The position numbers and the translations under genes are program-made. This document shows positions 10,216-59,088 of a stretch of DNA of 64,000 nucleotides, in pieces. The notes beneath the pieces are model-generated. The model made no database searches. It had not been told where the DNA came from and saw only the letters and a program-made list of their open reading frames with translations. The stretch comes from Cupriavidus basilensis OR16 (GTDB lineage Bacteria; Pseudomonadota; Gammaproteobacteria; Burkholderiales; Burkholderiaceae), in contig NZ_AHJE01000030.1 in NCBI RefSeq assembly GCF_000243095.1, forward strand, positions 1 through 64,000. The letters run 5' to 3'. The number at the start of each line of letters is the position of its first letter. Position 1 is the first letter of the stretch.

Positions 10216-11058
10216 CTACGCGTACGCCACCACCGTCTGGCCCTGCTCGCCCAGGCCGTCGATGCCCAGGCGCATGGTGTCGCCGGCCTTGAGGAAGCGC
10301 GGCGGCTTGAAGCCCATGCCCACGCCCGGCGGCGTGCCGGTGCAGATCAGGTCGCCGGGGTGCAGCGTCATGAAGCGGCTGACGTAGCTCACCAGCGTGG
10401 CCACGTCGAACACCATGGTGGCGGTGCTGCCCGTCTGCACGCGCTGGCCGTTGACGTCCAGCCACAGGCCCAGCGCCTGCGGGTCGGCCACTTCGTCGCG
10501 CGTGACCAGCCACGGGCCGACCGGGCAGAAGGTGTCGCAGCCCTTGCCTTTGTCCCAGGTGCCGCCGCGCTCGATCTGGAATTCACGCTCGGAGACGTCG
10601 TTGACCACGCAGTAGCCGGCCACGTGCGAGAGCGCATCGGCAAGCGAGACGTCACGCGCCACTTTGCCGATCACCACGCCGAGCTCCACTTCCCAGTCGG
10701 TCTTCTCGGAGCCGCGCGGCAGCATCACCGTGTCGTTGGGCCCGTTGAGCGAGCTGTTGGCCTTCAGGAAGACGATGGGCTCGGCCGGCAGCGCCATGCC
10801 GGCCTCGGCGGCGTGGTCGGCGTAGTTCAGGCCGATCGCCACGATCTTGCCGATGCCGGTCCAGGGCACGCCAAAGCGCTCGGCCTGCACCACCGGCAGC
10901 GTGGCCGGGTCCAGCTTGGCCAGGCGCGCCAGCGCTTCGGCCGATAGCGCCTGCGGCCCGAGGCCGTCCAGCACGCCGGACAGGTCGCGCACGCGGCCTT
11001 CGGCATCGATCAGACCCGGGCGTTCCGCGCCCGGCTTACCCACACGTACTAGTTTCAT
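10216..11058 (-). CDS. Fumarylacetoacetate hydrolase (FAH) family protein
   Basis: A 280-residue hydrolase/decarboxylase of the FAH fold, a family that acts on beta-diketo or 2-oxo acids in aromatic, uronate and ureide catabolism. The start at 11058 is supported by AAGGGGA eleven bases upstream. Characteristic segments are IGLNYADHAAEAG, EPIVFLKANSSL, DWEVELGVVIG (acidic metal ligands) and DLICTGTPPGVGMG near the C terminus. Its start codon overlaps the last codon of a decayed GntR gene, so regulator and enzyme were once one operon, divergent from the MFS-hydantoinase cluster. It may take part in that pathway, but its reaction is not fixed by sequence. Confidence 0.9.
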   Translation of the reverse strand: MKLVRVGKPGAERPGLIDAEGRVRDLSGVLDGLGPQALSAEALARLAKLDPATLPVVQAERFGVPWTGIGKIVAIGLNYADHAAEAGMALPAEPIVFLKANSSLNGPNDTVMLPRGSEKTDWEVELGVVIGKVARDVSLADALSHVAGYCVVNDVSEREFQIERGGTWDKGKGCDTFCPVGPWLVTRDEVADPQALGLWLDVNGQRVQTGSTATMVFDVATLVSYVSRFMTLHPGDLICTGTPPGVGMGFKPPRFLKAGDTMRLGIDGLGEQGQTVVAYA

Positions 11059-11519
11059 CGTTTCCCCTTGGCTTCGGTGGCGATGCGGCCGGCGGGCTCG
11101 GAAAGGGTCCGCGCGACCACGGTCAGGACTTCTTTTGCAGTGTTCTCGGAATGCTGGCGCAGTCCTGCCAGCGCAGCATATCCGCATTGGCGGCGCCGCG
11201 CGCGCGGTGGACCTTGCTCATCAGCGTGGCGTAGATGCCGGCCAGCACCGGATTGGCAGCGCCGTCGATGATCAGCTGGTGGATTTCCTGGTTGGTGCGG
11301 AAATACTCGGTGCGCCGCCCGTGCCGCCGCGAGTTCGCCGGCGGTGGCTTCAAGCCCGTGCAGCGTCTCGAAGGTGGAGCGCAACTCGTCAGTCTTGGAG
11401 ACGTCGAACATCTCGCAGAAGGCGCGCTCGTCGATGCGCGCGCCGGGGGGCAGTTCGCCCTCTTCGATCATGGTGCGCAGCCGCGCGGCGATGCCGAGGG
11501 TGCGCAGGCGGTTGGATTT
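11055..11519 (-). pseudogene. GntR (FCD) regulator remnant with internal deletions
   Basis: The minus strand encodes the beginning of a GntR regulator (SNRLRTLGIAARLRTMIEEG, LPPGARIDERAFCEMFDVSK). It then jumps directly to the FCD-domain opening DELRSTFETLHGLEATAGEL. About 50 residues that should contain the recognition helix and wing are missing. A second break follows at about 11350: the FCD continuation (YFRTNQEIHQLIIDGAANPV, LMSKVHRARGAANADM) is in another frame, and the final helix is degraded again. The last frame ends in a TGA overlapping the FAH start codon. The gene cannot make a working repressor. The neighbouring transporter operon may therefore be constitutive or under other control. 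Confidence 0.82.
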
Positions 11520-11567
11520 AGGAAGCGTTGCGTTCGCATAACAATAAAATCAACAACTTACGAGAGT

Positions 11568-11577
11568 TGTAATTACA
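11568..11577. promoter_or_regulatory. Palindrome TGTAATTACA upstream of the MFS operon
   Basis: A perfect 10-base palindrome in the AT-rich divergent region between the GntR remnant and the MFS gene. It is followed about 14 bases later by a possible -10 element (CCTATACT, near 11588-11595). Its position suits an operator for the now broken GntR regulator. The assignment is inferred from symmetry only. Confidence 0.5.
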
Positions 11578-11659
11578 GATTACGTATCCTATACTCCGTC
11601 CCAGTTGCGCGACACACAACACAAACCGCTCTACCATTCCCCCAAAGGAGACAAGCGTC

Positions 11660-12958
11660 ATGCAAACGACAAGCCGGGCTGCAGCGCTAACGGAGACGAA
11701 GAGCTCCGTACGCTGGAAGATTTTCCTGATGATGTTGTTCCTCATCGCCATCAACTACATCGACCGGGCCTCGCTCTCGGTGGCGATGCCGCTGATCGCC
11801 AAGGAGTTCGATCTCAGCCCCACCATGCAGGGGCTGATCCTCAGTTCCTTCTTCTGGACCTACGCGGTCATGCAGATTCCCGGCGGCATGCTGGCGGACA
11901 AGTACAAGCCGCGTATCGTGATCGCCACCGCCACCGTCTTCTGGGGCGCGTTCCAGGCCCTGGCGGCCGTGTGCACCAGCGCCGGCGCGCTGTTGCTGAC
12001 CCGGCTCGGGCTGGGCGCGGCCGAGGCGCCGATCTACCCGGCCGGCGGCAAGCTCAATGCGATCTGGATGACACAGAACGAACGCGGCCGCGGCGCCACC
12101 CTGCTCGATGGCGGCGCGCCGCTGGGCGCGGCGCTCGGCGCCATCATCATCACCTGGCTGATCACCGCGCTGGGCTCCTGGCGCCTGGCTTTCGTGGTCG
12201 CTGGCGTGGGCACCGTGCTGGCCGGCATGCTGGCGTGGTACTACGTGCGCAACTCGCCGCGCGAACACCGTGGCGTCAATGAGCTCGAAGCAAGCTATAT
12301 CGAGGCCGCGCAAGCCAGCGAGCACCGCGCCGAGCCGGCCAACCTGTCGGGCCGCTCGCTCGACTTCCTCAAGTACCGCTCCGTATGGTGCATGGCGATC
12401 GGCTGGATGTGCTTTAACAGCGTGTTCTACGGCCTGCTGACGTGGATGCCGAACTACCTGAACAAGGTGCACGGCTTCGACATCAAGCAAATGGGCGGCG
12501 CCAGCTTCATCATCTTCTTCTCCGGTTTTGTCGGCGAGCTCATCGGCGGCTGGATCGCCGACAAGTGGAAGGCCGCCGGCGGCGCCCCCAACCTGGTGAT
12601 GCGCACCCTGTTCGGCATTGCCGCCGTGGTGGCTACCGTGTCGATCTTCTCGGTGGCGTACGTGAAGGATCCGGTGGTGGTGGTTGCGCTGCTCTCCTCC
12701 ACGCTGTTCTTCCTGCGCTGGTGCGGCCTGTACTGGTGCATCCCGTCCATCCTCGGCACCCGCAACAAGGTGGGCGTGCTGGGCGGCATCATGAACCTGG
12801 GCGGCAATATCGGCGGCATCACCGTGCCCATCATCGTCGGCATGATCGTGCAGTTCACCGGCTCGTACTTCCTGGCGCTGATGTTCTTTGCCGCCGCCGG
12901 CGTGGGCCTGCTGATTTCCTCGACCGCGATCGACTACGAGAAGAAGCTGCCGGTCTGA
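11660..12958 (+). CDS. MFS transporter, anion:cation symporter (glucarate/galactonate) type
   Basis: A 432-residue, twelve-helix carrier. After a 20-residue leader, the segment LFLIAINYIDRASLSVAMPL is the family hallmark of the ACS group, which imports organic anions such as sugar acids, phthalate or tartrate with protons. The intracellular motif GGMLADKYKPR follows helix 2. It heads a plus-strand run with a serine hydrolase, a decarboxylase-like protein, a hydantoinase and a racemase-like protein. It is therefore the likely uptake route for the substrate of that pathway, probably a carboxylate. AAAGGAGAC lies just upstream of the ATG. Confidence 0.92.
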   Translation: MQTTSRAAALTETKSSVRWKIFLMMLFLIAINYIDRASLSVAMPLIAKEFDLSPTMQGLILSSFFWTYAVMQIPGGMLADKYKPRIVIATATVFWGAFQALAAVCTSAGALLLTRLGLGAAEAPIYPAGGKLNAIWMTQNERGRGATLLDGGAPLGAALGAIIITWLITALGSWRLAFVVAGVGTVLAGMLAWYYVRNSPREHRGVNELEASYIEAAQASEHRAEPANLSGRSLDFLKYRSVWCMAIGWMCFNSVFYGLLTWMPNYLNKVHGFDIKQMGGASFIIFFSGFVGELIGGWIADKWKAAGGAPNLVMRTLFGIAAVVATVSIFSVAYVKDPVVVVALLSSTLFFLRWCGLYWCIPSILGTRNKVGVLGGIMNLGGNIGGITVPIIVGMIVQFTGSYFLALMFFAAAGVGLLISSTAIDYEKKLPV

Positions 12959-13094
12959 GCGCGGCCCGATTTCCACATCAAGCCCCATCCCCCATCCCCT
13001 GTACGCGCCGCGCCGGCACACGCCGGCAGCGGCGCGGCTTGAACCGATCCCGTCCCGGCGCACCCCGCGCACCGGACGGTGGAGGAGACACCTC

Positions 13095-14309
13095 ATGAAA
13101 AGAAGCCCCCGCAAACTAGCCAGCGCGGCCATGGCAAGCGCCCTGCTGCTGCTCGGGACCGCGCACGCGCAGGTGCCCGCCGCCGCGCAGGCTGCGACGA
13201 ACAAGGCCGCGGAACTACCCACCGCCCAGCCCGAGACCGTCGGCGTCGATTCGCGCAAGCTCATCGCGCTCTCGCAGTGGATCCGCCGCGACCAGCTCGA
13301 TGTGCGCAGCCTTATCGTCGTCAAGGACGGCAAGGTTGTGTTCGAGCGCTACGGCGACGAACTCGGGCGCGACTACAACCACGAGCTTTACTCCGTCACC
13401 AAGTTCATCAGCGCTCTCCTGGTCGGCACGCTGGTGGGCGACGGCAAGCTCAGCCCGCAGGACAAGCCCGCCCCGCTGCTGGCCGCCGCGCGCCCGGACC
13501 TGGCGCCGGCGCTGGCCGACAAGCAGGACATCGCGCTGCGCCACCTGATGTCGATGTCCAGCGGCCTGTCATACAAGCTGGTGGAAGGCACCGACACGCT
13601 CTACTACGGCGTGCCCGACCGGCTGAAGGTGGCCGCCTCCGCCGCCGTGCGCACCAAGGCCGGCACCGAGTTCGACTACATCGACGTCAATCCCGTGCTG
13701 GTCGGTGCCACCATCACGCAGGTCAGCGGCCAGCCCGAGCAACGCTATGGGGAGGCACGCCTGTTCAAGCCGCTCGGCATGTCGCATTACCGCTGGGATG
13801 GCGCCGACGGCAAAGGCGCGGTCTCCGGCGGCTGGGGCCTGCGCCTGCGCACCATCGACATGGCCAAGCTCGGCCTGCTGATGCTCAACCAAGGCAAATG
13901 GCAGGGCCAGCAGATCGTGCCCGCCAGCTGGGTGGCGCGCATGACCACGCCCGCCGGCCCCGCGGCTGACTATGGCTACTACTGCTGGGTCAACAACATC
14001 GTCAAGAGCGAGCGCGAGTTCAGCGCGATGGGCTTCAAGGGCCAGTTCATTACCGTGCTGCCGCGGCAAAACGCCGTGATCGTGATGAACAGCATCATGT
14101 CCACCGCCGGCGGACTGCGCGATGCGGCCTACCTGGACCTCTATCGCAAGATGGTCAACGACTACGTGCTGCCCGCGCTGCAAGCCGGCAACAGCGTCAA
14201 GCCGGATGCCGCGCTGCAAGCCGCCCTGCGCCAGGAACTGGCGCTGGCGCGCGCCAGCCACGGCAAGCCTGGCACCGCCCTCGCCTTCAACGACAAGCCC
14301 GAACAATAA
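13095..14309 (+). CDS. Secreted serine hydrolase, class C beta-lactamase family
   Basis: A 404-residue protein with a signal peptide (residues 1-25, ending AHA) and the penicillin-binding/beta-lactamase fold. The catalytic SxxK motif is SVTK (S100, K103). The second motif lies in FDYIDVN, where the usual Y-x-N is Y-I-D. GFKGQF near residue 316 occupies the region of the third motif. Proteins of this type are often esterases, amidases or peptidases, not antibiotic-resistance enzymes. It sits 136 bases after the MFS gene and 67 before the decarboxylase-like gene, so an accessory role is likely, such as releasing a substrate in the periplasm. GGAGGAGA precedes the start. Confidence 0.87.
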   Translation: MKRSPRKLASAAMASALLLLGTAHAQVPAAAQAATNKAAELPTAQPETVGVDSRKLIALSQWIRRDQLDVRSLIVVKDGKVVFERYGDELGRDYNHELYSVTKFISALLVGTLVGDGKLSPQDKPAPLLAAARPDLAPALADKQDIALRHLMSMSSGLSYKLVEGTDTLYYGVPDRLKVAASAAVRTKAGTEFDYIDVNPVLVGATITQVSGQPEQRYGEARLFKPLGMSHYRWDGADGKGAVSGGWGLRLRTIDMAKLGLLMLNQGKWQGQQIVPASWVARMTTPAGPAADYGYYCWVNNIVKSEREFSAMGFKGQFITVLPRQNAVIVMNSIMSTAGGLRDAAYLDLYRKMVNDYVLPALQAGNSVKPDAALQAALRQELALARASHGKPGTALAFNDKPEQ

Positions 14310-14376
14310 CGAGCAAGGCCCGGCGCACAGCATCGCATCGCTTCGGGCCTCGCCATCTCCTAGAGAGCCTTACCCC

Positions 14377-15105
14377 ATGACCAAACGTACCCTTCTCGGC
14401 ATGCTCACGCCGTCGTCCAACACGGCGCTGGAACCCATCACCAGCGCGATGGTGAGCGGCCTGCCCAATGTCAGCGCGCATTTCTCGCGCTTCACCGTCA
14501 CCGAAATCTCGCTGCGCGACCAGGCCCTTGGCCAGTTCGACCTCGACAAGATCATCGGCGCGGCCAAGCTGCTGGCCGATGCGCGCGTGGACGTGATCGC
14601 ATGGAACGGCACTTCCTCCGGCTGGCTCGGCTTCGAGAAAGACCAGGCGCTGTGCCGCCAGATCACCGAGGCAACCGGCATTCCCGCCACCACCTCGGTG
14701 CTGGCGCTCAACGAAATCCTGGAAAAGACGGGCGCGGGCGACTTCGCCCTGGTGACGCCGTACCTGGACGACGTGCAGCAACGCATCGTGCAGAACTACA
14801 AGCGCAACGGCTTTAGCTGCACGGCCGAGCGCCACCTTGACCTGCACGTGAACTACAGCTTCGCCGAGGTCGAAGAAGACACCATCCGCCGCATGGTGCG
14901 CGAAGTGGCGCAGCACAAGCCGTCAGCCATCACCACGTTCTGCACCAACCTGCGCGCGGCGCACCTGGTGGAAGAACTGGAGGCCGAGACCGGCATCCCC
15001 GTGTACGACACCATCTCCACCGTGGTGTGGAAATCGCTGCGTCTGGCCGGCGTGGATACGCGCGCGCTGCGCGGCTGGGGCCGCTTGTTTGCCGAAGTGG
15101 AATAA
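14377..15105 (+). CDS. Asp/Glu racemase superfamily protein, arylmalonate decarboxylase-like
   Basis: A 242-residue protein of the maleate isomerase/arylmalonate decarboxylase branch (COG3473). The N-terminal motif MLTPSSNTALEP and the second half TTFCTNLRAAHLVEELE are typical. Racemases and maleate isomerases use two cysteines. Here the second is present (C189), but the first position reads AWNGTSSG, with Gly78 in place of cysteine. The same Gly/Cys pair (G74/C188) defines arylmalonate decarboxylase. A cofactor-independent decarboxylase or related one-base chemistry is therefore more likely than racemisation. The start was chosen at the ATG at 14377, preceded by GAGAG. It stands 14 bases before the hydantoinase gene. 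Confidence 0.84.
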   Translation: MTKRTLLGMLTPSSNTALEPITSAMVSGLPNVSAHFSRFTVTEISLRDQALGQFDLDKIIGAAKLLADARVDVIAWNGTSSGWLGFEKDQALCRQITEATGIPATTSVLALNEILEKTGAGDFALVTPYLDDVQQRIVQNYKRNGFSCTAERHLDLHVNYSFAEVEEDTIRRMVREVAQHKPSAITTFCTNLRAAHLVEELEAETGIPVYDTISTVVWKSLRLAGVDTRALRGWGRLFAEVE

Positions 15106-15119
15106 GGAAGAGAGGGCGC

Positions 15120-16511
15120 ATGAACACCGAACTCGATCTGGTCATCCGTAACGCCGAGGTGGTCACCGCCTCGGACCGCTTCACCTGCGATATCGGCGTG
15201 CGCGATGGCCGCATCGCCATGCTGGGCAATGACCTGCCGCGCGCCGCGCGCGAGATGGATGCCACCGGCCTGCTGGCGCTGCCGGGCGGAGTGGATGGCC
15301 ACGTCCACCTGGACCAGCCCATGCCCGACGGCATGCGCATGGCGGATGACTTCTTCACCGGCACGCGCGCCGCGGTATGCGGCGGCACCACCACGGTGAT
15401 CCCGTTCGCGGCGCAGGAAAAGGGCGGCTCGCTCAAGGCTGCGGTGGCGGACTACCATCGCCGCGCCGAGGGCCGCGCGGTGGCGGATTACGGGTTCCAC
15501 CTGATCGTGGCGGACCCCACGCCGGAAGTCTTGCAGCACGAATTGCCCGAGCTGATTCGCCAGGGCTACACCTCGTTCAAGGTCTATATGACCTATGACG
15601 ACCTGAAGCTGTCCGACCGCGAGATGCTCGACGTGCTCGACGTGGCCAAGCGCAACGATGCGCTGGTGATGGTGCACGCCGAGAACGCGGATTGCATCTC
15701 GTGGCTCACCATCTCGCCGCGTTTCCACGGCATGGCCCGGCCCGCGCTGGTGGAACGCGAAGCCACGCATCGCGCGATCACCTTTGCCGAGCTGGTCGAC
15801 GTGCCGATCCTGATCGTGCATGTCTCCGGCAAGGAGGCGATCGAGCAGATCCGCTGGGCACAGGGCAGGGGGCTGCCGATCCTCGCGGAGACCTGCCCGC
15901 AGTACCTGTACCTGACGGCCGAGGATATGGGCTTGCCTGGCGATGATGGCTACGAAGGCGCCAAGTGCGTGTGCAGCCCGCCGCCGCGGGATCCGGAGAA
16001 TCAGGCGGCCGTCTGGCGTGCGCTGACCAATGGCGTGTTCAGTGTCTTTTCCTCGGACCATGCGCCGTTCAACTATGACGATCCGCAAGGCAAGAAGCTG
16101 GGCGGCACGGCTCAGCCGTTTGACCACATTCCCAATGGCGTGCCCGGCATCGAGACCCGGCTGCCGCTGCTGTTCAACGGCATCGCGCAAGGCAGGCTTT
16201 CGCTGCACCAGTTTGTCGAGCTGACTTCGTACCGGCCGGCGCGGCTCTATGGCTTGTACCCGCGCAAGGGCACGATCGCCGTGGGCGCCGACGCGGATAT
16301 CGCCTTGTGGGATCCGCAGCGCAAGGTGCGGATCGCCAATAGCGACCTGCATCATGCAGTGGACTACACGCCGTACGAGGGCATCGAAGTGACCGGCTGG
16401 CCGGTGCATTGCTTCTCACGTGGCGAGTTGCTGGTTGAGGATGGCAAGTACCTGGAGCCGGCGCCGGGGCGAGGCAGGTTCTTGCCCGCGGGCGCGCCTT
16501 CCCTGGTTTGA
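15120..16511 (+). CDS. Dihydropyrimidinase / D-hydantoinase
   Basis: A 463-residue cyclic amidohydrolase that opens dihydropyrimidine, hydantoin or similar ureide rings. The full binuclear metal site is visible: GHVHLD (H61, H63), SFKVYMTYDD (carbamylated K154), MVHAEN (H186), LIVHVSGKEA (H234) and SSDHAPFN (D313). The length fits the family (about 460). The ATG at 15120 follows AAGGAAGAGAGG; a longer frame upstream overlaps the preceding gene. It is tightly coupled to the decarboxylase-like gene before it and the racemase-like gene after it. No N-carbamoylase lies in this cluster, although two carbamoylase-type genes occur 36-42 kb away. Confidence 0.95.
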   Translation: MNTELDLVIRNAEVVTASDRFTCDIGVRDGRIAMLGNDLPRAAREMDATGLLALPGGVDGHVHLDQPMPDGMRMADDFFTGTRAAVCGGTTTVIPFAAQEKGGSLKAAVADYHRRAEGRAVADYGFHLIVADPTPEVLQHELPELIRQGYTSFKVYMTYDDLKLSDREMLDVLDVAKRNDALVMVHAENADCISWLTISPRFHGMARPALVEREATHRAITFAELVDVPILIVHVSGKEAIEQIRWAQGRGLPILAETCPQYLYLTAEDMGLPGDDGYEGAKCVCSPPPRDPENQAAVWRALTNGVFSVFSSDHAPFNYDDPQGKKLGGTAQPFDHIPNGVPGIETRLPLLFNGIAQGRLSLHQFVELTSYRPARLYGLYPRKGTIAVGADADIALWDPQRKVRIANSDLHHAVDYTPYEGIEVTGWPVHCFSRGELLVEDGKYLEPAPGRGRFLPAGAPSLV

Positions 16512-16528
16512 TTTTTGCGGACACGATC

Positions 16529-17266
16529 ATGCGTATTCTTGTTGTTAATCCCAATATTTCAGAAAGCGTCACCGCGCTGATCCGCGCGGAGGCTGCGCGC
16601 ACGGCTTCGCCCGGGACTGCCTTGACGATGGCTACGGCGCAGTTCGGCGTGGCCTACATCGAGACCCGCTTCGAGGCGCTGGTGGGTGGCTATGCGACGG
16701 CTTGCGTGGCGGCGGAGCATCAGGGGCAGTTCGATGGCCTGGTGGTGGCGGCGTTTGGCGATCCGGGGCTGGCGGGGTTGAAGGAATTGTTCAATGTGCC
16801 GGTGGTGGGAATGACGGAGGCGGCGCTGGCCAGCGCCTGCCTGCTTGGGCAGCGCTTTTCCATCATTGCGATCTCGCATCGGATCGAGGCCTGGTATCGC
16901 GAGTGCGTGGCGGCTAACGGGCTGACCGCGCGGCTGGCCAGCGTGCGCTCGTTGCAGCAGCCGTTGCGCGATATCGGCAGCGTGCAGGAGGATCATGCGG
17001 CGCGGCTGGAGGAACTCAGCCTGAAGGCGGTGCGCGAGGATGGCGCGGATGTGATCATCGTGGCCGGTGCACCGCTGGCCGGGCTGGCGCGTACGCTCAA
17101 GGACCGGATTCCGGTGCCGGTGGTGGACGGCGTGTCGAGCGCGGTGCGGCATTGCGAGAGCTTGATTGCGCTGGCGCCCACCGGTGCGGCGGAAGGCAGC
17201 TTCGCGCGCCCGCCGCGCAAGCCCAATCGCGGCTTGCCGCCTACGCTGGCGGCGATGCTGGACTGA
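16529..17266 (+). CDS. Hydantoin racemase family protein lacking both catalytic cysteines
   Basis: A 245-residue member of the Asp/Glu/hydantoin racemase family (HyuE/COG4126), recognised by MRILVVNPNISESVT, the segment GDPGLAGLKE and the C-terminal HCESL region. In hydantoin racemases the two acid-base cysteines lie in ACFGDPG and GCAGMA. Here these read AAFGDPG (A75) and AGAPLAG (G180). With both cysteines absent, ordinary two-base racemisation is unlikely, and the protein probably performs another reaction in the same pathway. The ATG at 16529 was chosen; a TTG at 16508 overlaps the hydantoinase stop. It is the last gene of the cluster and is convergent with an epimerase gene. Confidence 0.85.
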   Translation: MRILVVNPNISESVTALIRAEAARTASPGTALTMATAQFGVAYIETRFEALVGGYATACVAAEHQGQFDGLVVAAFGDPGLAGLKELFNVPVVGMTEAALASACLLGQRFSIIAISHRIEAWYRECVAANGLTARLASVRSLQQPLRDIGSVQEDHAARLEELSLKAVREDGADVIIVAGAPLAGLARTLKDRIPVPVVDGVSSAVRHCESLIALAPTGAAEGSFARPPRKPNRGLPPTLAAMLD

Positions 17267-51680: not shown

Positions 51681-52958
51681 ATGACCGCGCAACACCCCCA
51701 GCAGGCAATACAGGCAACGCACACCCCACGCGCGCCGCGCATCCACCCGGAGCGCCTGCTGCAAAGCCTGGATGATCTGGCGCGGCTCGGCGCCATCGAG
51801 GGCGGCGGCGTGTGCCGCCTGGCGCTGACCAACGCCGACGAGCTCGGCCGCGACTGGACGGTTGCGCGCATGCAGGCGCTCGGCATGGCGGTGACGATCG
51901 ACGCCATCGGCAACGGTGTGGCCGTCTACGCCGGCACCGAAGACCTGCCCCCCGTGATGATCGGCTCCCATATCGATACCGTGCGCACCGGTGGCCGCTA
52001 CGACGGCAGCTACGGCGTGCTGGCCGGCCTGGAAGTGATCGCCACGCTGCGCGACGCCGGCCTGCGCACGCGCCGCCCCATCGCCGTGGCCTTCTTCACC
52101 AACGCGGCCGGCGTGCGCTTCCAGCCCGACATGATGGGCTCGCTGGTCTACGCGGGCGGCCTGCCCCTGGCGGATGCCCTCGCCGCTACCAGCATCGGCG
52201 GCACCACCGTAGGCGCCGAATTGCAGCGCATCGGCTACAGCGGCCAGGCGCCGGTTGGCGAGCCGCGCGTCGACAGCTTTGTCGAGCTGCACATCGAGCA
52301 GGGCCCGGCGCTGGACCTGCGCGACCTGCGCATCGGCGTGGTGGAGAGCGTGCAAGGCATTTCATGGACCGAGTTCACGATCGACGGCATGTCCAACAGC
52401 GCCGGCACCACCCCCATGGACCTGCGGCACGACGCCGGCTACGCCGCCATGCGCATCGCCAGCTTCGTGCACGACCTGGCGCTGCGCTACGGCGACAGCC
52501 AGCTCGGCACGGTGGGCGCCATGCGCTTCGAGCCCAACAAGATCAACGTCATCCCCAAGCGCGCCACCTTCACCGTCGACCTGCGCAACACCGATGACCA
52601 ACTGCTCGCCCAGGCCGAAGCCGAGGTGCTGGCTTTTGCCGAGCAAGCCTGCCAGGCGGAGATCCTCAACCTGAGCTACCGCTTGCTCGCGCGCCTGGAG
52701 CCGGTAGCGTTCCACCCCATGGTCACCGACCTCATCGAGCAAGAGACCGCCTCGCTGGGCTTAAGCCATATGCGCATGCCCAGCGGCGCCGGGCACGATG
52801 CGCAGATGCTGGCGCGCGTGTGCCCGAGCGGCATGATCTTTGTGCCCAGCGTCAAAGGCCTGAGCCACGATGTGCGCGAGTTCACCGAGCCGGACGACCT
52901 GGTCAATGGTGCGCAGATCCTGCTGCAAGTGGTGGTCAGGCTCGCCGACCGGCCCTGA
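51681..52958 (+). CDS. N-carbamoyl-L-amino acid hydrolase / allantoate amidohydrolase family (M20)
   Basis: A 425-residue hydrolase of the hydantoinase/carbamoylase M20 group, which removes a carbamoyl or ureido group from amino-acid-like substrates. Metal and substrate motifs: MIGSHIDTVRTGGRYDGSYG, VELHIEQGPALD, SNSAGTTPMDLRHDAG, and SGAGHDAQMLA with the final VKGLSHDVREFTEPDDL. Where homologues have N-E-E-G (catalytic Glu pair), this protein reads FFTNAAGVRFQPDMMGS, so the usual EE is AA. The start at 51681 lacks a strong ribosome site; upstream in-frame ATGs exist at 51615 and 51606. It is divergent from the MazG-like gene. Confidence 0.85.
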   Translation: MTAQHPQQAIQATHTPRAPRIHPERLLQSLDDLARLGAIEGGGVCRLALTNADELGRDWTVARMQALGMAVTIDAIGNGVAVYAGTEDLPPVMIGSHIDTVRTGGRYDGSYGVLAGLEVIATLRDAGLRTRRPIAVAFFTNAAGVRFQPDMMGSLVYAGGLPLADALAATSIGGTTVGAELQRIGYSGQAPVGEPRVDSFVELHIEQGPALDLRDLRIGVVESVQGISWTEFTIDGMSNSAGTTPMDLRHDAGYAAMRIASFVHDLALRYGDSQLGTVGAMRFEPNKINVIPKRATFTVDLRNTDDQLLAQAEAEVLAFAEQACQAEILNLSYRLLARLEPVAFHPMVTDLIEQETASLGLSHMRMPSGAGHDAQMLARVCPSGMIFVPSVKGLSHDVREFTEPDDLVNGAQILLQVVVRLADRP

Positions 52959-54358: not shown

Positions 54359-55483
54359 TCAAAGCCCAGGATACTTCGTCCCGATCCGCTGCGCCAACGC
54401 CTCGTCCGCCGCCTCGCCACCGACATCCCACTCCGGGAACACGCTCAGGTCATCGGCAAGCTCAGCAATCACGTCACGCAACTCCAAGGGCGCCAGCCAT
54501 TCTGGCGGAATCGCCTCCACGCCCAGCAGCGCACCCAGCAAGTTGCCCGTGATAGCGCCAGTCGAATCGGAATCGCCGTCATGATTCACCGCCAGCACAA
54601 CGCCGTGACGAAAATCGCGCGCGACCAAGGCACAGTAGACGGAAATCGCCAACGCCTCCTCCGCCACCCAGCCCTCGCCCAGGCGCGCGATGGCGTCATC
54701 AAAGGCCACGCCAGAATCGGCCAGCGCCTGCGCATGCAGGATCGCCAGCAGCGTCTCCTCGTGATGCGGCCACGCGGACAAGCACGCTTTAGCGCTCGAC
54801 AAAGCATCAGGCAGCGCAGCACCGCCGGCCAACGCCCCGATCAACACCGCCAGGACGCCGCCCGTCAGCGATCCGCTCGGGTGCCCATGGGTGAGCGCGG
54901 CAAGCTCCATACCCAGGTCAAAAGCATCCTGAGGCCAACCCCGCCCGGCGCGCCGCCACGCAAACAGGCCAGCCGGCGCCACGCGCATCACACCGCCGCA
55001 GCCCTTGCTATCGTTTCTCGCGGGCTCTCCCAGCCTGAGCATCGCCTCCAGCGCCGACAAACAGGTATGGCCCGGCGCGCGGCGGCTGTGTAGTGCCGCC
55101 TGCTGGTAAAGCCACCCCGGCTTGTCCGACAGCACATCGCGATGAAACGCCGGCTGGATCCCCTGCGTCAGCAACCAGCGCAGATAAGCGCGCGAGACCA
55201 CGCCAGGAACACTGCCATCGCCCCGGCCGGCCCCGCCCACCCATGCCCGCAGCAAGCCCTCCGCCGTGAACAGCGTCATCTGCGTGTCATCGGTGATGGT
55301 GCCGACGCCACCGTAGGCCGGCGCGTAGCCGGTGATGCCGTCCGTGCCAAAGCGCTCGCGGATCTCCGCGAGCGACAGGAACTCCACGGGAGCGCCCAGT
55401 GCGTCGCCGACAGCGCCGCCCAGCAAGCAGCCCCGGAAGCGGCTGCGTGTGATTTCGCGATCAATGACCGAGGCAGAAAACAA
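54359..55483 (-). CDS. ADP-ribosylglycohydrolase family protein
   Basis: A hydrolase of the DraG/ARH family, about 374 residues from a TTG start at 55483. RFRGCLLGGAVGDALGAPVE at the N terminus, ITDDTQMTLFTAEGLLRA (first magnesium ligands), GCGGVMRVAPAGL and NHDGDSDSTGAITGNLLGAL (second ligand set) are all intact. The family removes ADP-ribose from proteins, nucleic acids or small molecules. The TTG start has GGAGGG just upstream and fits the usual distance to RFRG. An ATG at 55546 in the same frame would place a complete terminator hairpin inside the coding sequence, so I consider it less likely. A structured leader precedes the gene. Confidence 0.86.
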   Translation of the reverse strand: MFSASVIDREITRSRFRGCLLGGAVGDALGAPVEFLSLAEIRERFGTDGITGYAPAYGGVGTITDDTQMTLFTAEGLLRAWVGGAGRGDGSVPGVVSRAYLRWLLTQGIQPAFHRDVLSDKPGWLYQQAALHSRRAPGHTCLSALEAMLRLGEPARNDSKGCGGVMRVAPAGLFAWRRAGRGWPQDAFDLGMELAALTHGHPSGSLTGGVLAVLIGALAGGAALPDALSSAKACLSAWPHHEETLLAILHAQALADSGVAFDDAIARLGEGWVAEEALAISVYCALVARDFRHGVVLAVNHDGDSDSTGAITGNLLGALLGVEAIPPEWLAPLELRDVIAELADDLSVFPEWDVGGEAADEALAQRIGTKYPGL

Positions 55484-55600
55484 AAAACCCTCCGTGTAAG
55501 GAGGGTCGACGCATGGCCCGTTTGCTTGCTCCTCAAGGAGCCACATCCGCTTTCGCGATCCACCTTGCCCGGGAAGGCAGGTTGGCTTGGGCGTCGACCC
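55477..55600 (-). promoter_or_regulatory. Structured leader with alternative stem and terminator-like hairpin
   Basis: Read on the minus strand, GGGTCGACGC (55600-55591) is perfectly complementary to GCGTCGACCC (55512-55503), closing a domain of about 98 bases. Inside are the hairpins CGC-GAAA-GCG and GCTCC-TTGA-GGAGC (about 55541-55528). Immediately after comes ACCCTCC-TTACAC-GGAGGGT (55506-55487) followed by TTTTTGTTTT, a textbook intrinsic terminator. The ACCC of the closing stem is also the first part of the terminator stem, so the two structures exclude each other. The terminator's second arm contains the GGAGGG that would serve as ribosome site for the TTG start. This is the layout of a riboswitch or attenuator. 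No known riboswitch consensus was recognised. Confidence 0.6.
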
Positions 55601-55757
55601 AAATCAGAATGTGGGCGGATTGGAACATGGGGGGTTGGGGGGTGTCAAGGGTGGGGGTGGGGCGGGATCGGCCAGCGGTGTGATCGTGAGCCGCATCATC
55701 CAATGTGTTTCGCCCGCTTGAAGCAGTGTGCTTGAGGAGATACCTGTGCGCAGGCAA

Positions 55758-56423: not shown

Positions 56424-57717
56424 CTATTGGTTCGCCAGCGCGGCCACGGTATAGGCCAGCGCCTGCGCCCCAAGGAATAGCTCGTGCGGCGCCGTTTCCT
56501 CTGCTGCGTTATGGCTGATCCCACCTTTGCTGGGCACAAAGATCATGGCCGTGGGGCAATGCTCCGCCAGATACATGGCATCGTGGAACGCGCCGGAAGT
56601 GAGGTGCAGCGGCTTGCCCTGCGACGCCTGCTCGCTGGCCCGCGCACAGGCCCGCTCGATCAGGTTCAGCATGGCAGCGGGGAAGTGCGTTGGCGGGCGC
56701 CGGAAAAAGCATTGGTACGTGATGCCGCCCTGGCGCGGCCGAGCCTGCGCAATCGCGGCATCCAGCCTTGCCTCGAAACGCGTCAGCACCGCCTCGTCCA
56801 CGCAGCGCACATCAATCGTGAATTCTACCTTGCCGGGAATCGTGTTGACGGAGTTGGGGCCGACTTGCCAGCGGCCCAGCGTCAGCCGCAACTGGCTGGC
56901 GGCCTCGGCGGTGGCGTAGGCGTACAACTGGTGGGCAATGCCAACGGCGGTAGCCATGGCATCGCTGCGCTCGCCCATGGGCGTGGTGCCCGCATGCGCC
57001 ATCATGCCGGTGCATTCCACACGGTACCACCGCACGCTCTGGATGCCGGTGACCACGCCCAGCGGCACGAGCGCGCGCTCCAGCACCGGGCCCTGCTCGA
57101 TGTGCAGTTCCACGCAGGCCGACATCGGCCGCTGCATCGGGCGGCGCGGCACGTCGTCCATGGCGGCAAGCGCGGCGTCCAGCGCATCGCCGAAGCGGAT
57201 GTTGGCGCCGTCCACCGACGCGCGATACGCGGGCAGGCAAGCCGGATCCACAAACGCGCTCGACCCCATGGCCCCGGGCCCGAAGCGGCTGCCTTCCTCG
57301 TTGGTCCAAGCCACCACTTCGATCGGGCGCAGCGTCTCGATGCCGGCTTCATTGAGGGCCGCGATGACTTCGAGCCCGGCCAGCACACCGTAGGCGCCGT
57401 CCAGCTTGCCCCCGACCGGCTGCGTGTCGGCATGGCTGCCGGTCAGCACGGGCGGAAGGTCAAGCTTGCCCCGCGCGGCGGAAAAACAGGTTGGCGCAAT
57501 CGTCCGTGCTCACCTCGCAACCCAGCGCGCGCGCCTGCTCGACCAGGTAGCGCCGCGCGGCAAGATCGATATCGGTCAGCGTTTCACGGGAGACGCCGCC
57601 ATCGTCCCGACCGCCGAAAGCGGCCAGCGCGGCAATGGCCGCCTGCAAGCGGTCGTTGTTGACATGGTCCTGCGCCTGTTCTGCCGCGTGCTGCGCCAGT
57701 TGATCTTGTTGAGTCAA
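56424..57717 (-). pseudogene. N-carbamoyl-L-amino acid hydrolase family (M20), frameshifted
   Basis: The N-terminal 85 codons (57717-57460) encode the start of a hydantoinase/carbamoylase protein (HVNNDRLQAAIAALAAFGGR, LVEQARALGCEVSTDDCANL) but end at a TGA. The rest (56424-57449 and a few codons before it) continues in the next frame: VLTGSHADTQPVGGKLDGAY, WTNEEGSRFGPGAMGSSAF, MAHAGTTPMGERSDA. Removing one T of GCTTGACC (near 57461-57466) restores QADLPPVLTGSHADTQP and one protein of about 430 residues. All metal-site motifs are intact, including the catalytic NEEG. It is either an inactivated gene or a one-base sequencing error. It lies between the amidase and the XRE-cupin regulator. Confidence 0.85.
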
Positions 57718-57757: not shown

Positions 57758-59088
57758 TCAAGCCACGCTGCGCTCAAGCGCCTGCGCGGCCGCAAGCACG
57801 CCCGCATCGCCCCGGTGCGGGCCGATCAGCGTCACGCCCACCGGCATGCCGTGCGCACCCGTGCCGGTAGGCACATGGACACAGGGATTGCCGAGCAGAG
57901 TCCACATGCGGTTGAAAATGGGATCGCCCGTTGCGCCCAGGCCGGCCGGGGCCTCGCCCTGCGCGCTCGGTGCAAGGACGATGTCGACGGACTCGAACAT
58001 CTGCTCGAAGGCCCTGCGCGCGGAACCGGCGAGCGCCTGCGCGGCAAAGAAGCGGCTGCCATCGATGCCGCGGCCCGCCGCCAGCAACGTGGCAAAGCCA
58101 CCGCTGAAACCATCGGGCCGCGCCGCGTCTCCGGCGCGAAAGCGGCCGCGGCTTCGTACGCCATGATGTCGATCTGGGCCTGCGTCAGTTCGTCGAACTC
58201 AGCGGGCAGCATCAGGTCGCTCAACACGGCGCCCTGGCCTTCGAGCAAGCGCGCGGCGGTGTCCAGCGCACGCCGGCTGTCATCCCCCGCGCGCTCCCAA
58301 TGCGGCGTGCGGCAAATGCCAACGCGCAACGGCATCGGCCGCCCGGTCTCCCGCGGCGTGAGCGAGAGGCGCGCCATCGCGCCGATGAAGAAGGCAGCAT
58401 CGTCGACGGAGCGCGCCAGCACGCCCACGGTATCCAGGCTGGGCGAGAGCGACTTGATGCCGGCCGACGGCAGCGTGCCATAGGTCGGCTTGTAGCCGAC
58501 CACACCGCAATAGGCTGCAGGGCGGATGATGGAGCCGGCAGTCTGGGTGCCGAAGGCGATCGGCACCATGCCGGCAGCCACCGCCGCCGCCGATCCGCTG
58601 GACGAGCCACCCGGCGTGCGCGGGGCATCCGCGGGCGCGCGCGGGTTGCGCGTGGGACGCGCGGGGCATCCGCGGGCGCGTCGCGGGTTGCGCGTGGGAC
58701 CCGGCTGGAAAGTAGCGAACTCGGTGGTCACGGTCTTGCCCATGACCACCGCACCCGCGGCGCGCGCCATTGCCACGCAGGCGGCATCCATGCCGGGCCG
58801 ATGCCCGGCATAGATCGGCGAGCCATACGTGGTGGGCATGTCGGCGGTATCCATCAGGTCCTTCACGCCGATGGGCAAGCCATGCAACGCGCCCAAGACT
58901 GGCCCGGCATCCAGCAACCGCGCCTGCTGCAATGCCTGCGCCCCATCGAAATGCTGCCAGGCCAGAATGCCGGCCTCGGCGGCGTCGATGCGCTCGATAT
59001 ACGCGCGTACCAATGTCTGCGCGCTGAGTTCGCGCCGCGCCATGCGTGCCGCCAGCTCGCGCGCCGGCAGTGCCAGGAAATCGTTCAT
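57758..59088 (-). pseudogene. Amidase-signature enzyme with a frameshift and an internal duplication
   Basis: An amidase of the GatA/AtzF fold. The catalytic lysine lies in GLPIGVKDLMDTADMPT, and the Gly/Ser signature with cis-Ser and nucleophile Ser is PGGSSSGSAAAVAAGMVPIA followed by FGTQTAGSIIRPAAYCGVVG. Two defects are visible. First, 14 extra residues (a tandem copy of TRNPRA-type sequence) are inserted directly before the PGGSSSG signature. Second, the frame breaks near 58125. The continuation (DGFSGGFATLLAAGRG to the stop at 57758) requires one additional G at CCGGAGAC. Without the frameshift the protein would have about 443 residues. It starts 12 bases after livF and belongs to the Liv operon. 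Confidence 0.85.
58619..58700. repeat. Tandem duplication of about 41 bases inside the amidase gene
   Basis: The segments 58620-58658 and 58661-58700 are nearly identical. Both start GCGGGGCATCCGCGGGCGCG and end GGGTTGCGCGTGGGAC, and the second has one extra T. The extra base makes the net insertion 42 bases, so the reading frame is kept, although the inserted copy is partly read in a shifted frame. The position is just before the catalytic signature of the amidase. Confidence 0.88.

Follow-up and report, generated by a model that had tools for sequence, protein, structure and literature searches.

Positions 11660 to 17266 of a 64,000-nucleotide stretch of Cupriavidus basilensis OR16 DNA (contig NZ_AHJE01000030.1 of assembly GCF_000243095.1; the whole stretch is called the window here) carry a set of genes that, to judge from comparison of their sequences, is a conserved catabolic-type operon built of known enzyme families. 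The genes encode a transporter of the major facilitator superfamily (MFS), a hydrolase of family PF00144 (BLAC), a protein resembling both arylmalonate decarboxylase (AMDase) and maleate isomerase (AMD), a D-hydantoinase (HYD) and a racemase-like protein of family PF01177 (RAC). On balance we favour reading the locus as a catabolic operon under GntR control whose substrate is a small cyclic ureide or amide. The operon is apparently undescribed: no account of it was found among the PubMed Central titles and abstracts searched, and accounts in the body of papers or outside that literature are possible.

The five plus-strand reading frames are all open, and the gaps between them, in the order MFS, BLAC, AMD, HYD and RAC, are 136, 67, 14 and 17 nt. 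MFS (11660..12958; PF07690, 176.5 bits) resembles D-galactonate transporters and is presumed to be an importer. BLAC (13095..14309; PF00144, 98 bits), an optional member, is an SxxK serine hydrolase with an N-terminus that looks signal-like by eye. AMD (14377..15105) matches the Amdase family PF17645 with 88.4 bits against a cut-off of 25.9 and carries Gly78 and Cys189. HYD (15120..16511) exceeds the cut-offs of two models of the D-hydantoinase/dihydropyrimidinase family, TIGR02033 (499.8 against 393.25 bits) and NF009941 (733.7 against 647), and RAC (16529..17266; PF01177, 138.9 against 31 bits) resembles allantoin and hydantoin racemases except that alanine occupies both catalytic cysteine positions. 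The minus strand carries an FAH-family hydrolase (10216..11058; PF01557, 250.8 bits), which is the FAH arm of a divergent GntR-FAH side, and the gene of an FCD-type GntR regulator that, compared with its intact relatives, is without several internal stretches (11058..11529). The initial annotation of this DNA had described five plus-strand genes together, opposite an FAH hydrolase and a dead GntR gene, and the domain matches place all of them there.

That annotation also proposed looking for the gene order in other genomes, and the order is conserved in both collections of loci that we compared, same-family loci and the best RAC loci. AMD matches, weak ones counted, occur in 174 of 299 genomes of the same family searched at E up to 1e-3. 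Among 80 chosen stretches from that family, five of which are paralogue regions of the OR16 genome itself, GntR followed by divergent MFS-AMD-HYD-RAC recurs, and BLAC lies in the MFS/AMD interval, 3' of HYD, or nowhere. The RAC loci were obtained with a six-sequence RAC alignment, which matched at least 598 stretches in a species genome collection; in 524 of these a relative is encoded. We used the best 80, scoring neighbours as present at 45% identity or more. RAC is accompanied by both HYD and AMD in 64 of these 80 loci, by HYD alone in 10, by AMD alone in 2 and by neither in 4, part of the missing neighbours reflecting short contigs. HYD lies immediately 5' of RAC in 70 loci, with a spacing below 120 nt in 68 of them; AMD, HYD and RAC are consecutive in 45, and MFS stands in front in 40. 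The hosts include Cupriavidus, Ralstonia, Pandoraea, Paraburkholderia, Variovorax, Polaromonas, Pseudorhodoferax, Advenella, Pseudomonas typographi and Stutzerimonas azotifigens. The laboratory strain Cupriavidus metallidurans CH34 has AMD at NC_007974.2 431435-432160, coordinates shared with locus L116, where the genes run MFS-AMD-HYD-RAC.

Co-occurrence extends beyond the family. In a phylum survey of 398 genomes (thresholds of E up to 1e-40 for AMD, 1e-140 for HYD and 1e-45 for RAC), AMD was found in 17 genomes, HYD in 25 and RAC in 13. AMD and HYD share 14 genomes, HYD and RAC 12, and AMD and RAC 11, with hypergeometric p values, which ignore kinship between genomes, of 1e-16 to 2e-15. With the family of C. 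basilensis removed, HYD is present in 11 of 14 AMD genomes and 10 of 11 RAC genomes (p 3e-13). A chance adjacency of the genes was rejected on the conserved order and the co-occurrence. The window is colinear with three related loci (L079, L177 and L080) from operator to RAC, except that BLAC is absent from L080 and the HYD-RAC gap is longer in L177 and L080. That interval (8389-8637 in L177, 7587-7818 in L080) holds about 230 nt more than in the window and includes a run of N in L177. An M20 gene and an AraC gene found upstream, chiefly in Cupriavidus, were set aside as operon partners and attributed to local synteny, as they occur in only 6 and 4 of the 80 RAC loci, respectively.

The interval between GntR and MFS contains the region's single promoter-like site (11567-11595), with an operator-like element, TTGTAATTACAGATTACG (11567..11584), overlapping its -35; a -10-like hexamer, TATACT, follows at 11590..11595 on the plus strand. 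The promoter scan as such found one site against 0.9 expected, which is no better than chance. The sequence TTGTAATTACAGATTA, in turn, lies 5' of MFS in 23 of the 34 RAC loci that have both GntR and MFS, in Cupriavidus, Ralstonia, Pandoraea and two other Burkholderiaceae. The 11 loci where it is missing comprise ten from Burkholderia or Paraburkholderia and one from a Neisseriaceae; in three Paraburkholderia stretches that do not have the exact sequence, inspection by eye shows a similar one. This conserved putative operator, retained in the window, supports a GntR-controlled operon. Control by sigma-54 was dropped, as none of the -24/-12-like patterns found in a window-wide search (90 matches against 107.6 expected) lies just 5' of MFS.

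The GntR gene itself had been called dead. Internal stretches are indeed missing, and the remaining pieces are 89-98% identical to the GntR genes of L080 and L079, the gene being intact in relatives. However, five amidase genes elsewhere in the OR16 assembly are likewise found in two adjacent pieces, so an assembly fault has to be considered seriously in place of a dead gene. With 416 contigs and 5.1% contamination in addition to these two-piece genes, frame damage in the window has to be read cautiously.

The company that the module keeps in other genomes fits the breakdown of a cyclic amide or ureide. Its transporters interchange (MFS, ABC of the NMT1/SsuA type, or TRAP), with GntR regulators again nearby, and the recurrent additional genes encode amidase-signature amidases (17 of the 80 RAC loci), MhpD-like hydratases, PuuE-like allantoinases and TRZ/ATZ-type deaminases. 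The OR16 genome also encodes many amidase-signature amidases. On an IncFIB plasmid of Klebsiella michiganensis, where the set (L257, 2629-12839) lies close to insertion-sequence genes, RAC and GntR are divergent from three ABC genes, two dehydrogenases, AMD, HYD, FAH and a further dehydrogenase; this RAC also has AAFGDPG and AGAPLAG. In Azospirillum, GntR is divergent from ABC, amidohydrolase, AMD, HYD and amidase genes, and in Sinorhizobium from aminotransferase, TRAP, amidase, FAH and AMD genes. The hydantoinase operon of Paraburkholderia phymatum (Bphy_6150-52), described in a passage of PMC5979394 with a predicted RpoN site and in connection with bean nodules, may be of the same kind. In another locus (L163, 7925-10454) a HYD homologue comes directly after a gene for a cyanuric acid amidohydrolase, which scores 546.8 bits against 360.

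The strongest hint of a ureide as the compound handled by RAC comes from a contig assigned to Candidatus Avidesulfovibrio (L198). There a RAC of 78% identity is flanked by FdrA (439.1 bits against 433) and by a cytosine-deaminase-like amidohydrolase whose 281.4 bits fall short of the cut-off of 438, close to a second FdrA, two AllG proteins of the oxamate-carbamoyltransferase type, a carbamate kinase (367.3 against 358.25), a TRAP transporter and an amidase. In Escherichia coli, allFGH encode the oxamic transcarbamylase of allantoin breakdown (PMC11326118). The oxamate branch, with its carbamate kinase, is linked to the present operon through the RAC relative only, and the window operon contains no such genes.

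FAH is tied to the pathway because it adjoins RAC or HYD in other genomes; in L207 and L215 a homologue lies directly 3' of RAC. Its nearest NCBIfam model is the 2,4-didehydro-3-deoxy-L-rhamnonate hydrolase, for which its 462.4 bits fall below the cut-off of 500. The secreted serine hydrolase of the initial annotation is present where it was placed, but only as an optional member: BLAC is absent from L080 at a clean junction and occurs in 17 of the 80 RAC loci. We therefore rejected it as a core member and kept it as an optional partner on account of its recurrence in several genera. The SxxK motif reads SVTK or SITK in all 23 BLAC homologues from RAC loci.

HYD is clearly a predicted member of the D-hydantoinase/dihydropyrimidinase family. 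It aligns with a solved D-hydantoinase at E 3.7e-120 over residues 5-455 of 463, and an alignment with 1nfg shows that the HxH, FKV, HAEN, HV, SDH and PNG motifs, to which the catalytic residues of D-hydantoinases and their roles are assigned, are all kept. After HxH the sequence is LDQPMPDGM, compared with LDMPFGG in 4kqn. The earlier proposal of a central ring-opening enzyme is supported. The gene company of HYD differs from that of 1nfg and 4kqn. As in the textbook hydantoin pathway, a hydantoinase and a racemase-family protein stand side by side; the two-cysteine racemase and the carbamoylase of that pathway are absent here, with AMD, FAH and GntR instead. The textbook pathway was rejected on these grounds, the missing racemase cysteines and the lack of an adjoining carbamoylase, in agreement with the view of the initial annotation that this is not a normal hydantoin pathway. 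Its statement that the cluster contains no carbamoylase was also correct: the two TIGR01879 carbamoylase-family genes above cut-off in the window, at 51750-52940 (plus strand) and about 56424-57651 (minus strand), are some 34 kb or more away. The second is split by a frame change and a stop and adjoins a two-piece amidase-signature gene (57794-59088, minus strand); this region is possibly a separate ureide cluster or the product of assembly errors.

AMD combines features of two families. Its best PDB matches by sequence are AMDases, and the Gly74/Cys188 pair of the Bordetella bronchiseptica AMDase (EC 4.1.1.76) is kept as Gly78/Cys189, as are Thr75-Ser76 and Tyr126 of the dioxyanion hole (Thr79-Ser80 and Tyr129). 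Cys189 is present in all 60 aligned AMD rows and Gly78 in 56, the others having cysteine (3) or alanine (1). However, Gly189 of the dioxyanion hole is replaced by Thr190, and in the hydrophobic pocket Val156 is replaced by the polar Asn159. At the place of Met159 in that pocket AMD has Phe162, which is hydrophobic though not identical. Pro14-Pro15, Leu40, Val43 and Tyr48 of AMDase fall outside the aligned part, and AMD has TPSSN near its N-terminus. The AMDase motifs LMGTSLSF and ILLSCGGL read AWNGTSSGWL and ITTFCTNL, and AMD misses the NCBIfam arylmalonate decarboxylase model NF052327, with 79.2 bits against a cut-off of 225. In the passages used here, Maimanakos et al. 2016 (PMC4996985) consider arylmalonate activity highly unlikely in proteins without the hydrophobic pocket, treat the natural substrate of AMDase-like enzymes as a question still open in 2016, and list MR/MLE, TTT, TRAP and ABC genes around AMDase genes without naming a hydantoinase.

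The matching catalytic set (Gly78/Cys189, Thr79, Ser80 and Tyr129) and the PDB matches would suit a genuine decarboxylase acting on a malonate-type acid released by ring opening, a reading that overlaps with the one we favour. The Asn and Thr substitutions, the two divergent motifs, the NCBIfam score and the view of Maimanakos et al. on proteins without the pocket all speak against it, and we regard it as fairly unlikely. The initial annotation had called AMD a Gly/Cys decarboxylase-like enzyme and had suggested ring opening and decarboxylation; the Gly/Cys pair stands, whereas decarboxylation is unproven, given the AMDase features that fail. Nor is the malonate-like substrate it envisaged shown, the gene contexts elsewhere favouring cyclic ureides and amides.

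The match of AMD to the maleate cis-trans isomerases (4fq5/4fq7 and 2xec/2xed) runs near full length, with the SSN and TPY motifs aligned. The maleate isomerase family requires both of its active-site cysteines, and Asn residues bind the carboxylate. We take Asn159 and Cys189 of AMD to correspond to maleate isomerase residues, and Gly78 presumably occupies the position of the first, nucleophilic cysteine, so that AMD differs from these enzymes in having Cys189 only. AMD therefore seems to be a hybrid, with one-cysteine chemistry and a pocket apparently made for a second carboxylate. If the likeness to maleate isomerases went further, the operon could serve a cyclic imide pathway, in which HYD would be an imidase for a ring of the maleimide or succinimide type, the half-amide would be removed by an amidase whose gene lies elsewhere, and AMD would isomerise the maleate-type diacid so formed. 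The aligned SSN, the Asn at the place of AMDase Val156, and the amidase-signature genes both near RAC and in the OR16 genome are consistent with such a route. Against these stand Gly78, where the isomerase would have its nucleophile, in nearly all AMD rows, and the carbamoyl-transfer genes near the Avidesulfovibrio RAC, which suit a ureide better; we consider the imide pathway improbable.

RAC aligns over almost its full length with 5lfd (E 1.5e-35) and 3qvk (E 1e-32) and shares AxFGDPG with 3qvj and 3qvk. The two catalytic positions, both Cys in 3qvj, are Ala75 and Ala181 in RAC. In the part of PMC12661438 drawn on here, the cysteine pair is stated to be conserved across the superfamily (Cys79/Cys184 in KpAllR), and changing the first cysteine of OpaE leaves 4.8% of activity and changing the second at most 0.3%. 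To go by its predicted active site, the RAC step cannot be a two-cysteine racemisation. The description of RAC as cysteine-free was thus right for the catalytic pair but not for the protein, which retains Cys59, Cys104, Cys126 and Cys209. In the printed alignment 5lfd, a named allantoin racemase and the nearest solved relative, carries Gly in place of the first cysteine and keeps the second, so there is precedent for losing the first one by itself. Cysteine loss is also not unique to RAC, since other PF01177 proteins from the OR16 genome (own_L002) and from L158, as well as four more distant ones in AMD loci (L133, L136, L140 and L146), lack cysteines at these positions.

Both alanines are found in all 81 sequences of a species scan (window included), which used peptide patterns, one of them including Ala75, so that the count is biased for position 75 and not for 181. 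A first set of 28 RAC sequences has Ala75 throughout and Ala181 in all but one, a paralogue from the OR16 genome (L072_05). In a wider set, 36 of 41 rows have AAFGDPG and GAPLxG; both cysteines are present in one of the other five (L147_2378) and neither in the remaining four. A tree of 32 rows divides the Ala/Ala sequences between two groups with good support, one of 16 rows and one of 6; the node that joins them is weak (87/53), so that a single origin is not shown.

The two alanines would also suit a RAC that is a pseudo-enzyme, retained as a regulatory or structural partner. Thirteen other positions, however, are invariant in all 81 sequences (Asn7, Pro8, Asn9, Tyr43, Thr46, Arg47, Glu49, Asp78, Trp122, Tyr123, Glu125, Asp200 and Lys231) and look like a retained active site, and the pseudo-enzyme appears to us a rather poor prospect. 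At several of the thirteen, 3qvk departs from RAC, and the TR.E and WY.E motifs of RAC are unlike those of 3qvk. As a tentative proposal, the operon would be an undescribed Pseudomonadota pathway in which two proteins that share the Asp/Glu-racemase fold have diverged, AMD to work with one catalytic cysteine and RAC with none, RAC having a new activity on a ureide or cyclic ureide through a centre formed by Tyr43, Thr46-Arg47, Glu49 and Asp78.

Taken as a pathway for a cyclic ureide or amide, the operon would work as follows. The substrate would be a hydantoin- or dihydropyrimidine-like ring, probably bearing or yielding a second carboxylate. MFS would import the ring compound and HYD would open it by metal-dependent hydrolysis. 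AMD, with its maleate-isomerase-like carboxylate pocket and single cysteine, may then carry out a one-sided proton transfer beside a carboxylate, the outcome being a tautomerisation or isomerisation, or a cofactor-free decarboxylation. RAC may act on the ring or on the opened ureide, without two-cysteine racemisation, and FAH could finish the sequence by hydrolytic C-C cleavage or hydration, giving central metabolites. Orotate-, isoorotate-, barbiturate-, pterin- and thiamine-pyrimidine-type rings were considered as substrates, and none could be singled out.

Several observations weigh against this scheme. AMD has a second context, in eleven Burkholderiaceae loci (L041, L048, L054-L057, L060-L062, L078 and L097), in which HYD and RAC were not found and an AMD of 64-75% identity lies 3' of genes for two PF04909 amidohydrolases, UbiD, UbiX and CobW; eight of the eleven also have a xanthine-permease-type transporter and an 8-oxoguanine-deaminase-like enzyme. 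This context suggests a nucleobase-like ring and an AMD that is not tied to HYD alone. Ten loci from the same genus consist of MFS-AMD and FAH, with a GntR gene called in nine of them, and HYD and RAC were not found in the fetched stretches. In one such genome (G026) HYD, an amidase and a RAC of 53-54% identity cluster at a separate place; the AMD substrate therefore need not come from a HYD of the same operon. G773 likewise has AMD and HYD at different sites, which argues against a strict unit, and AMD is missing, at the set thresholds, from 11 of the 25 genomes with HYD, in some of which HYD has other neighbours. Within the window operon no carbamoylase or amidase gene was found. The Avidesulfovibrio contig is a 22.9-kb metagenome piece whose assignment may be wrong.

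HYD is, moreover, the sole TIGR02033 match above cut-off in the OR16 genome, and could also serve pyrimidine breakdown. Matches to PreA, of the dihydropyrimidine-dehydrogenase family, are all below threshold in this genome, the best being a partial one (99.9 bits against a cut-off of 335) that lies beside a TIGR01879 gene on contig C248, where no hydantoinase match was found. A role of HYD as no more than the dihydropyrimidinase of the reductive pyrimidine pathway, with unrelated neighbours, is nevertheless very improbable in view of its strong co-occurrence and conserved order with AMD and RAC, and no PreA match was found on the contig of the window.

Two further features were noted outside the operon. 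The window contains a match to the SAM-I/IV riboswitch (55512-55617, minus strand; 55.1 bits against an Rfam cut-off of 41.1), which overlaps the start of an open reading frame (54359-55546) that is ADP-ribosylglycohydrolase-like by eye. In L065, from 9762 onward, the open frame of a distant AMD relative (39%) continues into a further domain, GAF-like by eye.

The operon ties a relative of the AMDase family to a ring-opening enzyme, which would narrow the search for the natural substrate of such proteins. The surprising part of the operon is RAC, a strictly conserved group without the catalytic cysteines in a superfamily described, in the part of PMC12661438 used here, by its cysteine pair; it would allow a direct test of what else this fold can do. 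Since the gene set is present in many soil- and plant-associated Burkholderiales and on a Klebsiella plasmid, what it breaks down is probably a commonplace compound of the environment that has so far not been connected with these genes.

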